A stretch of DNA of 64,000 nt from Rhodospira trueperi (GTDB taxonomy: Bacteria > Pseudomonadota > Alphaproteobacteria > Rhodospirillales > Rhodospirillaceae), in NCBI RefSeq assembly GCF_900101965.1, contig NZ_FNAP01000011.1:62001-126000 (forward strand), written 5' to 3'. Positions within the stretch are counted from its first letter, which is position 1. Every line of letters starts with the position of its first letter. The notes beneath the pieces are model-generated. The model saw only the letters and a list, made by a program, of their open reading frames with translations. It made no database searches and was not told the origin of the DNA. Shown piece by piece: positions 59,118-62,300 of this stretch. The translations under genes and the position numbers were made by a program.

Positions 59118-59423
59118 GGTGCTGTCATCCGCTCCGCAAGAGTGATCTCGGGGATACGGAAGGTAGCTCGGATCGCCGCATCGGGGAAGGGGCATCATGC
59201 GTGGCCGACCGGTCTCTGGATGAGACCGTCACCAGGGACGCGACTCTCGGTGCGGATCCAACAGGTGCCCCAGACACGAACCGGACCGCATCAAACGGAC
59301 TTCGTATCAGGTCCCGGGGTATCAGGTCCCGGGCCGCCCGCCCGGCCATGCCCGGCCATGGTCAGCGCATCACCGGCCCCGGCGCGCATGCCGAGACCGG
59401 GATGGATGTGCCGAAGCGGACGC
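59118..59423. other. 306-bp intergenic region with short tandem duplications
   Basis: No gene supported. GCATCAAACGGACTTCGTATCA near 59289 resembles one outer arm of the composite repeats. GTATCAGGTCCCGGG is duplicated perfectly at 59304-59318 and 59319-59333, and CCCGGCCATG at 59341-59350 and 59351-59360. Confidence 0.6.
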
Positions 59424-59903
59424 TTACGCCGCAGCCGCGTCCTTGTCGGTGCTGGCGTGCGTGATCGCGGTCGGACCGGACGCGGAGGCGATTTCGATCC
59501 GGCGCGGCTTCTTCTCCTCCGGCACCTCGCGTTCCAGGCTCACATGCAGCAGGCCGTTCTCGATGGCCGCGCCGCGCACCTTGATATGGTCGGCCAGTTC
59601 GAACTTGCGCTCGAACGCGCGGGTGGCGATGCCCCGATGCAGGTACTGCCCCTCGGGCTCCGCGCGCTCCTGACGGCCGGAAATAATCAGCGTGCTGTCG
59701 TGCACGGTCACATCCAGGGTTTCCGGAGCGAAGCCGGCGACCGCCATGGTGATGCGGTAGGCGTCGTCGGAGACCTTCTCGATGTTGTAGGGCGGATAGG
59801 CGGCGGCCTGCTCGTCCAGGCGGCTGGCGGTATCCAGCAGACGGCTGACGTTGTCGAAGCCGATGGCGAAACGATGCAGAGGGGTCAGATCAAAAGTACG
59901 CAT
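59424..59903 (-). CDS. Hsp20/IbpA-type small heat-shock protein
   Basis: 159 residues: alpha-crystallin domain with YPPYNIEKVSDDAYRITMAVAGF, TLIISGRQER, the IATRAFERKFELADHIKVRGA block and ENGLLHVSLEREVPEEKK. It holds unfolding proteins for later refolding. The N-terminus MRTFDLTPLHRFAIGFDNV matches rhizobial class A Hsps. GGAGG is seven bases before the ATG at 59903 and appears sequestered by a ROSE-like hairpin, so synthesis should rise with temperature. Confidence 0.95.
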   Translation of the reverse strand: MRTFDLTPLHRFAIGFDNVSRLLDTASRLDEQAAAYPPYNIEKVSDDAYRITMAVAGFAPETLDVTVHDSTLIISGRQERAEPEGQYLHRGIATRAFERKFELADHIKVRGAAIENGLLHVSLEREVPEEKKPRRIEIASASGPTAITHASTDKDAAAA

Positions 59904-59949
59904 GTCGAAGTCCTCCTTCAGAAGCGACTTGGGCAGAAGCGACTTGGGG
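59904..59949 (-). promoter_or_regulatory. ROSE-like RNA thermometer with duplicated anti-Shine-Dalgarno arm
   Basis: In the Hsp20 mRNA leader, AAGUC-G-CUUCU can pair with AGGAGGACUU, which contains the ribosome site, leaving one G bulged; the pairing arm includes UCGCU, matching the U(U/C)GCU motif of ROSE elements. The arm is present twice because CAGAAGCGACTTGGG is perfectly tandemly duplicated at 59919-59933 and 59934-59948. The proximal copy closes a UGAA tetraloop. Confidence 0.65.
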
Positions 59950-60146
59950 ACAGCCGGGCGCATCGTGTGATCGCAACCCGGATGCCGCGGTTTGCAGGTC
60001 GGCCAAGGGCTCGCCGGCACCGCCGCGCGAGGCCTTTCGGCCGGGACCGGTCCCCGTTCGGGCAACCGGATGGCGTCGATTTGGGTTGGAGAAATCGGGG
60101 CCGCAAGAGAAAAAATCGACCCCTTTAGCCTTATGATAAGGGAGCC

Positions 60147-62300
60147 CTATGATCGCGGCGTCTTGGGCGCGGTCTTGTGGACCAGTTGTTCGTCCACCCA
60201 GCCGTCCGCCTCGGGATCGACGGGCAGCGGCGCCTCATGGTCCAACGACCCCTCGGGCAACGGCGCCGTGGCGCCGGACGCCTCGTCCTCTCGTGGCCCG
60301 TGCTCGACCTCGGGTTCACCGCCCCCCTCGGTCGTCGCCCCCTCGGTCGTCGCCTCGTCGGGGGCGCCCTCGGTTTCGCTGGGGGATCCGCCCCACAGCA
60401 CCTCATGGATCGGCTGCGGCCCCTTGATCCCCTTGAGGGTCTCGGTGCCCCGATCCGCGAACCGCAGGTCCGTATCCGCGCACATGTCGCGCACCACCTG
60501 GGACACCATGATCTGGTCGGCATCCGCCTTGGCGCAGACGCGCGCGGCGATGGTCACGGCGAGCCCGTAATAATCGTTCTCGGCGCTGATCGGCTCGCCG
60601 GCATTGATGCCGATGCGGATGCGCAACGGCATGTCCGGGTGGGTCTGGTTGTGGGCGCGCACCGCCTTCAGGACGTCGGCCATGCCCCGCACCGCGTCGG
60701 GGACATGCTCGAACGTGGCCATGATGCCGTCGCCCGTATGCTTGATTTCGCGCCCCGAGAAGCGGCCCAGGGCGGAGCGGACGGCCGAGTTGTGCGCCCT
60801 CAGGATGTCCTGGGCCTTGATGTCCCCGACCGCGCTGGTCATGTCGGTGGAACCCACGATGTCGGTGAAGACGATGGCGATGGTATTGCCCGTCACCTTC
60901 TGGGTTCTGGGGGTGTTCCAGTCCTCCACCACCATGCCCAGGTTGTCGAACGGCTCGACACCGCCGTTCAACATCAGGGTCATGGCCTCGCGTCCGTATT
61001 GCACCATCTGCGCATACCGTTCCTCTGTCAGATAGGTGTCGAGCTGGACGACGAAGGATCGTGCAAGGGCCGGGCGCGTCCCCATGATTTCGGCGGTTTC
61101 GCGCAGCAGGAGTTGGGATTCGGACCGGCTCATGCCCACCCGGTGTCCAAGAACGTCGCAGCACCCGGCCAGATAGAGATTGATGCCGAACCTGTTGTAG
61201 GTGTCCAGGTGGGAGCGGATGGTCTTGAGGGCCGAAACGTACTTGCCCAGGAACGAATGCAGGAGGTCCCGGCCGGCGGACAGCGCCGGGCTGACGGGCG
61301 CCTTCGGCTCAGCCTGCTGGTCCTGAGCGTCCGGATCGGTCGCCGCCTCTGCCTCGCCATCGGCTTCGCCCGACCGCGCCTGCTGTGGGGCCTCTTCCTC
61401 CTGGCCTTCCTTCTTCTTTTCCGCTTTTTTCTGCTTTTTTTCTTCTTTTTCGCGCTCTTTTTCTTCGCGTTTCAGCCTCTGGTATTCTTGGAGTGTCGGT
61501 GCATCCTTGGCGCTCATTTCTTCGGGGGCGGCGGCCTCTCCCGAGTCGTCCGTCGGTTCTGGGGTCGGTTCTGGCGTTCGTTTGGACGGTTCGGGTTTGC
61601 GCTCCCTCTCCGGCATGGACTTTTTCACGGCGGCCGACCTCGCGCTGTCGGCCTTGCGTTTCCGCGCCCGTGCGCTGTCTTCCAGAAACCCTTCCAGCGG
61701 GACCAGTCGCGCGGTCAGGAGGAGCCCGGTCCCCAGAACCAGAACCATGAAGGCCGCGAACAGGGTCTCCGACAACAAAATGGTGTCGATATAGACGCCT
61801 GCGTTGCGAAGCATGCTGATTCCAACCGGGATCAACGCGGTCCCGGAGGTCGCGATCACCAGACTGGCGATCACCACGAACATCAGACGGGCGACCAGAT
61901 CCCGCACGGTGCGGACGGGTTTGGGTTTGCCGAGAAGGGAATGGCGCGGCGGCTTGTCGGCCGATTCGGTTCCGAATGCCTCTTCCAGCCCCGGCGGGAT
62001 CACCGTATGGGGGCGGGTGCCGTGAAAGGCCGTCCCGCCGACAGGTCCCAGCGCCTCGCGGTCCCGTGCCCGTTCGCGTTCGCCCCGCGCCAACGGACTT
62101 CTGAAGACCGTTTGATCCGTGTATCTGTTTGTGTCCGTATTATAGGACTCCCGGATCACCTTGGTCGGACGTCGGATGCGCGCGTCAAGTTCTCGGGCCT
62201 CATCCAGCGCCTGGTTCTTTTCAGCGCTGGTGTACCGCCCATGCAGAACCCACCCGCCGTTCTCCAGCGCATAAACCTCATAATGAGCGATCGTCGGCAT
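60147..62300 (-). CDS. class III adenylate/guanylate cyclase with two membrane helices
   Basis: 717 residues. A short N-terminal domain (about 1-70, YEVYALENGGWVLHGRYTSA), then two membrane helices (LMFVVIASLVIATSGTALIPV; LFAAFMVLVLGTGLLLTARL). A very charged Lys/Glu coiled-coil-like linker with Pro-Glu repeats follows (about 225-360), then a helical domain and the cyclase domain: VFTDIVGSTDMT, REIKHTGDGIMATFEHV, IRIGINAGEPISAENDYYGL. Both metal-binding Asp are present. An acidic tail of about 85 residues ends the protein. It makes cAMP (or cGMP) at the membrane; the input signal is unknown. The ATG at 62300 follows CCCGGAACGGAT. Confidence 0.93.
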   Translation of the reverse strand: MPTIAHYEVYALENGGWVLHGRYTSAEKNQALDEARELDARIRRPTKVIRESYNTDTNRYTDQTVFRSPLARGERERARDREALGPVGGTAFHGTRPHTVIPPGLEEAFGTESADKPPRHSLLGKPKPVRTVRDLVARLMFVVIASLVIATSGTALIPVGISMLRNAGVYIDTILLSETLFAAFMVLVLGTGLLLTARLVPLEGFLEDSARARKRKADSARSAAVKKSMPERERKPEPSKRTPEPTPEPTDDSGEAAAPEEMSAKDAPTLQEYQRLKREEKEREKEEKKQKKAEKKKEGQEEEAPQQARSGEADGEAEAATDPDAQDQQAEPKAPVSPALSAGRDLLHSFLGKYVSALKTIRSHLDTYNRFGINLYLAGCCDVLGHRVGMSRSESQLLLRETAEIMGTRPALARSFVVQLDTYLTEERYAQMVQYGREAMTLMLNGGVEPFDNLGMVVEDWNTPRTQKVTGNTIAIVFTDIVGSTDMTSAVGDIKAQDILRAHNSAVRSALGRFSGREIKHTGDGIMATFEHVPDAVRGMADVLKAVRAHNQTHPDMPLRIRIGINAGEPISAENDYYGLAVTIAARVCAKADADQIMVSQVVRDMCADTDLRFADRGTETLKGIKGPQPIHEVLWGGSPSETEGAPDEATTEGATTEGGGEPEVEHGPREDEASGATAPLPEGSLDHEAPLPVDPEADGWVDEQLVHKTAPKTPRS

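Follow-up and report, generated by a model that had tools for sequence, protein, structure and literature searches.

A probable ROSE-type RNA thermometer ahead of hsp20 with a genome-specific tandem duplication of its anti-Shine-Dalgarno arm

ROSE elements (Rfam RF00435; the Bradyrhizobium japonicum hspA type) belong to small heat-shock protein (sHsp) genes of alphaproteobacteria. They occupy the sHsp leader, place a UYGCU motif against the Shine-Dalgarno (SD) sequence in their last hairpin, and carry stable hairpins upstream (PMC3669281, PMC4166951). The leader of the Neisseria meningitidis cssA thermosensor has a short stretch that differs from strain to strain, and where 8 nt are lost the hairpin is weakened (PMC4166951). 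In fHbp of the same species, two short repeats are each able to pair with the ribosome site, and mutants show them to be partly redundant (PMC4999090). For thermometers with duplicated anti-SD arms, a search of the literature gave no result.

Here we describe an hsp20 leader within a 64,000-nt stretch of DNA, the whole of which is referred to as the window. This leader shares with ROSE its position ahead of an sHsp gene and a U(U/C)GCU motif paired imperfectly and with a bulged G to the SD in the last hairpin. Where ROSE has stable hairpins upstream, it has two candidate hairpins. It differs from ROSE in having an additional copy of the anti-SD arm and, like most Rhodospirillaceae leaders tested, in scoring under the curated Rfam cutoff. 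Its repeats resemble those of fHbp in that there are two, each able to pair with the ribosome site, but those of fHbp measure 6 nt and are part of the coding region, whereas those of the hsp20 leader are 15 nt long, tandem and upstream of the SD. The hsp20 repeat can also be likened to the variable stretch of cssA, where strain variation has been seen and where, unlike in the hsp20 leader, no ROSE motif is known. We consider it likely (probability about 0.88) that the hsp20 leader is a ROSE-type thermometer in which a recent, genome-specific 15-bp duplication has left an upstream copy that is mostly a bystander. This reading builds on the sequence, its conservation and covariation, and the distribution and base rate of the duplication. 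The gene and the parts of its ribosome site are as follows.

59424 to 59903, minus strand: hsp20, an IbpA-type small heat-shock protein gene of 159 amino acids (translation, Pfam HSP20, starts of homologues)
59894 to 59901, minus strand: GCGUACUU, spanning the last AUG base up to codon 4; predicted to pair with the distal arm AAGUCGC, one U being bulged (minimum free energy and sampling)
59908 to 59916, minus strand: 3' arm of the ROSE hairpin, GGAGGACUU (covarying helix; covariance-model match 59942-59898)
59912 to 59918, minus strand: Shine-Dalgarno AAGGAGG, 8 nt upstream of the AUG (sequence)
59919 to 59933, minus strand: gene-adjoining copy of the 15-bp tandem repeat (sequence)
59921 to 59930, minus strand: proximal anti-SD arm AAGUCGCUUC, which has the bulged G and the UCGCU motif and serves as the working arm (covariance-model match, sampled structures)
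59934 to 59948, minus strand: upstream copy of the 15-bp tandem repeat (sequence; present in this genome only among the leaders compared)
59936 to 59945, minus strand: distal (duplicate) anti-SD arm AAGUCGCUUC, predicted to be a minor competitor for the SD and to pair mostly with codons 1-4

The protein encoded at 59903-59424 matched Pfam PF00011 (HSP20) with an E-value of 5e-22, and its closest NCBIfam model was IbpA, with a score under that model's cutoff. It is present in five congeners and about 50 more relatives within the order, the nearest named one being from Roseospira navarrensis (89% identity). Homologues have the same initial methionine (MRTFDL) as the start at 59903, and the GGAGG of the SD is kept in all congeners.

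On the minus strand the leader reads CCCAAGUCGCUUCUG CCCAAGUCGCUUCUG AAGGAGGACUUCGAC AUG. The two 15-nt copies are identical and head-to-tail, and the 15-mer has no other occurrence in the whole genome beyond these two sites. The original prediction, made from the sequence of the window, had reported this perfect tandem duplication containing the pairing arm as well as the U(U/C)GCU signature of ROSE, and both were confirmed, the latter as UCGCU in each copy. Similarly borne out was its bulged-G pairing to the SD: in the proximal copy GGAGGACUU is the partner of AAGUC-[G]-CUUC, with a bulged G and a UGAA loop. The helix had been drawn as AAGUC-G-CUUCU, which holds through CUUC; the additional U-A pair was dropped because the 2-nt loop that it leaves is too small.

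Leaders were collected for hsp20 homologues, some on genome contigs and others from the whole genomes of relatives and of members of the class. Of 191 distinct alphaproteobacterial hsp20 leaders, 183 had a UYGCU motif no more than 40 nt from the start, as compared to 6% in shuffles. We then aligned 34 leaders with the window's genus left out. Across this alignment the nine-pair helix with the bulged G had 97.1% of its cells paired, and it contained 26 double-sided changes versus 7.8 in shuffles, none of 500 shuffles being as high. Its covariation score was 0.459, as compared to at most 0.189 for slid registers. The hsp20 hairpin is therefore maintained by compensatory changes among relatives. 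A covariance model (R1) built from the same alignment, and so also without the window's genus, matched the window at 59942-59898 with 30.0 bits and an E-value of 1.5e-6, using the proximal arm. The hsp20 leader was the top R1 match within its own genome, and the model also matched 5 of 5 congeners (19.6-30.8 bits). One further match in a congener (G002:C103:993), which is antisense within a cbbX-like gene, was taken as chance.

The proposal of a ROSE-type thermometer at the hsp20 ribosome site is thus supported by motif frequency, covariation and the covariance-model match, and we regard the leader as a well supported example of an ordinary ROSE-type, heat-melting RNA thermometer. The family features described for ROSE (PMC3669281, PMC4166951) are present or plausible in this leader: an HSP20-domain gene starts at 59903, and in the model alignment UCGCU of the proximal arm falls within the 3' hairpin and pairs imperfectly with the SD. 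An Rfam scan of the window gave no match at the gathering score. RF00435 was nevertheless the best family for the leader, aligning over its full length including the 5' hairpin (59981-59897) with 19.5 bits against a cutoff of 45. Relatives with the same hairpin scored 22-30 bits under this model or were unlisted, and only 1 of 12 loci tested, a Methylobacterium, reached the curated cutoff (48.5 bits). The low score counts against the ROSE reading, though most related leaders also fall under the cutoff, and we take it to reflect a limit of the model, a property of its training set and not of the element.

Farther upstream lie additional conserved elements, two candidate hairpins and a putative promoter.

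59954 to 59981, minus strand: 5' leader hairpin, CCGGGUUGCGAUC...GAUGCGCCCGG (counterpart, by alignment, of the first hairpin in Rfam ROSE)
60047 to 60069, minus strand: further upstream hairpin, CCGGUUGCCCGAACGGGGACCGG (conserved in six congeners; structure by inspection)
60079 to 60107, minus strand: putative sigma-32-type promoter, CTTGCG ... ACCCAAAT (conserved in six congeners; consensus resemblance)

The GCGATC...GATGCG of the 5' hairpin is kept in six congeners. When the 260 nt upstream were aligned for these six, CTTG, 17 nt and (A/C)CCCAAAT were conserved from 60107 to 60079, an element that we take to resemble the sigma-32 promoter consensus. A sigma-70 promoter scan found nothing. 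A transcription start near 60070 would follow from the putative sigma-32-type promoter, which together with the strongly conserved hairpin at 60047-60069 suggests a leader of about 165 nt. A start at that position would place both arms within the leader, and so a start downstream of 59948, which would exclude the arms, is unlikely; the most likely promoter lies upstream of them.

The proposed working of the element is that at low temperature the proximal arm, AAGUC-G-CUUC, would pair with the 3' arm and hide the ribosome site, and we infer that in the cell heat would loosen the imperfect helix near the bulged G and the UCGCU motif, allowing Hsp20 to be made. The upstream copy, which probably arose by the slippage-type duplication common in this genome, would be mostly a bystander, with little chance of capturing the SD itself and otherwise lengthening the hairpin by pairing with codons 1-4. 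It would be tolerated because the working hairpin beside the SD stays intact.

Structures sampled for a transcript that runs from 59981 up to codon 7 are in line with a dominant proximal arm, which held the SD in 0.90, 0.80 and 0.68 of structures at 25, 37 and 45 C, as compared to 0.05, 0.12 and 0.21 for the distal arm. In agreement with the sampling, constrained energies put the distal register 1.1 kcal/mol worse at 37 C. The ribosome site thus stays paired at low temperature, as a thermometer would have it, but the original picture of two competing arms is not supported: at 37 C the proximal arm dominates by 0.80 to 0.12 and the distal arm competes weakly. Wherever a sampled structure contained the proximal helix, codons 1-4 (GCG-U-ACUU) were the partner of the distal arm. 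Two-copy and one-copy forms were compared over 30 combinations of transcript ends. With two copies the mean cost of opening the SD rose by 0.9 kcal/mol at 25 C and 0.8 kcal/mol at 42 C, and the SD was tighter in 19 of 30 constructs at 25 C and in 23 of 30 at 42 C. The melting slope was steeper with the duplication in 15 of 30 constructs and not in the other 15, with one further construct shallower, and there is therefore no consistent effect of the duplication on slope. The second copy is predicted to give at most a slightly tighter lid, with no consistent sharpening. These energies serve only for comparing one form with another and do not give a melting point: the non-canonical ROSE pairs lie outside the energy tables of ViennaRNA, the absolute opening that it predicts is small even at 50 C, and for that reason it cannot confirm a melting temperature.

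The distribution of the duplication is narrow. All five congeners examined have a single arm, including one (L116) in which the identical arm is present in one copy, so that the second copy occurs in 1 of 6 genomes of the genus, and in none of the other 190 hsp20 leaders is the arm tandemly duplicated. With the hsp20 leader as query, a search of plasmids gave no match. To place the repeat against the genome at large, a base rate was taken from 759 kb of this genome, in which 23 perfect tandem duplications have a unit of at least 12; the shuffled control holds one of 12 and none longer. A unit of 15 is the commonest above 9 and accounts for 9 of the 23. A perfect 15-bp tandem copy is therefore not a chance match of letters, yet it is not exceptional in this genome. 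Since the leader duplication is one of many such events, selection is not needed to explain it, and a selected or conserved duplication was rejected on the distribution and the base rate. The duplication looks like a recent slippage event specific to this genome, and it is probably near-neutral, a property that we infer. The earlier suggestion that slippage tunes the thermometer in evolution finds no support in this distribution. Examples of short perfect tandem duplications in the sampled genome include L130:289, L130:14058, L170:9263, L177:14937 and L185:15886. Four lie within about 1 kb around hsp20 (59304-59333, 59340-59360, 59919-59948 and 60323-60354, with units of 15, 10, 15 and 15), while the sampled genome has about one with a unit of 10 or more per 26 kb.

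Given the cssA and fHbp precedents, the idea of a useful second arm is, by analogy, mechanistically reasonable and not new in kind, but it is not supported in the hsp20 leader. Such an arm would make the element a two-register thermometer, in which the distal arm recaptures the SD or clamps the start-codon region and thereby changes the melting point or lowers the leakage. The climb of the distal share of SD pairing (0.05 at 25 C, 0.21 at 45 C), the 0.8-0.9 kcal/mol by which two copies make the SD harder to open (mean of 30 constructs) and the pairing of the distal arm with codons 1-4 in the majority of sampled structures all speak for it. Its effect on slope, however, is a coin-flip (15 of 30), the duplicate is seen in no congener and in none of 190 other leaders, and what the distal arm pairs with in the coding region is a complement short enough to be expected by chance; we therefore hold a functional duplicate to be unlikely. 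Slightly less likely again is its fuller form, in which the SD would be held at low temperature by the proximal arm and codons 1-4 would be clamped by the distal arm, which would recapture the SD as the proximal helix melts, raising the set point and turning copy number into a dial adjustable by slippage. The sharpened or shifted melting that the original prediction thought possible with two arms is not supported, and sharper melting in particular was rejected for its mixed sign over the 30 constructs.

A repeat-number switch, by which copy number would vary among strains and tune hsp20 through phase-variation-like slippage, would suit copies that are short and perfect, and the weakening of the Neisseria cssA thermometer by an 8-nt leader loss (PMC4166951) shows a comparable change. 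The copies number only two, however, and multiple copy numbers were not seen in the genus, at one genome per species, which makes this very improbable. Hardly credible is a coding repeat, with hsp20 beginning upstream at a TTG at 60065 and the 15 bp forming a five-residue protein repeat. The reading frame is indeed open upstream as far as 60065 and 15 is divisible by three, but homologues begin at MRTFDL with a strong SD 8 nt ahead, the open frame of two congeners stops a few codons upstream (open frames of 164 and 165 amino acids), and the covariation of the leader is RNA-like. An N-terminal coding extension of Hsp20 was accordingly rejected on the start positions of homologues and the stops in congeners.

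The R1 model also revealed a ROSE hairpin outside of sHsp leaders, namely in the leader of rpoH, which encodes the heat-shock sigma factor, in this genome (G000:C22:31735-31777, equivalent to L260:1170-1212), a gene whose identity as sigma-32 is given by a TIGR02392 score above cutoff. ROSE has been described as always tied to small heat-shock genes (PMC4166951), and our literature search, whose coverage is incomplete, found no report of rpoH with ROSE. Matches on the rpoH strand were obtained in all six Roseospira genomes and, over the relatives within the order as a whole, at 22 of the 30 rpoH loci.

rpoH loci with a ROSE hairpin by R1 model matches: L260-L265, L268, L269, L272, L274-L277, L281-L289 and L301

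In four loci the match covers the rpoH start itself, and in most others the hairpin lies about 140-350 nt upstream, directly 5' of the start codon that opens a short reading frame, one that is not conserved. On the likely reading, ROSE would gate rpoH directly in some species and by way of the short upstream frame in others. The helix of the rpoH leaders covaries, with 98.5% of cells paired and a score of 0.473 versus at most 0.187 for slid registers, in an alignment that was fitted to the R1 model and that includes one extra match off the rpoH strand. In a class-wide sample 1 of 29 rpoH loci had the hairpin, again from the same order, and outside the order the hairpin is apparently absent. 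One relative has a second R1 match, of 21.8 bits, on the strand opposite rpoH (L301:2691-2730).

The aggregate data document probable ROSE control of hsp20 throughout the genus and, by way of the 191 leaders, over much of the Alphaproteobacteria, where the Rfam ROSE model misses most of the cases tested. In the duplicated arm nature offers a single-step experiment on how a thermometer puts up with, or makes use of, a second anti-SD arm. The finding of a ROSE hairpin in rpoH leaders of most Rhodospirillales examined would extend ROSE beyond small heat-shock genes, and this result may outweigh the hsp20 duplication in importance.
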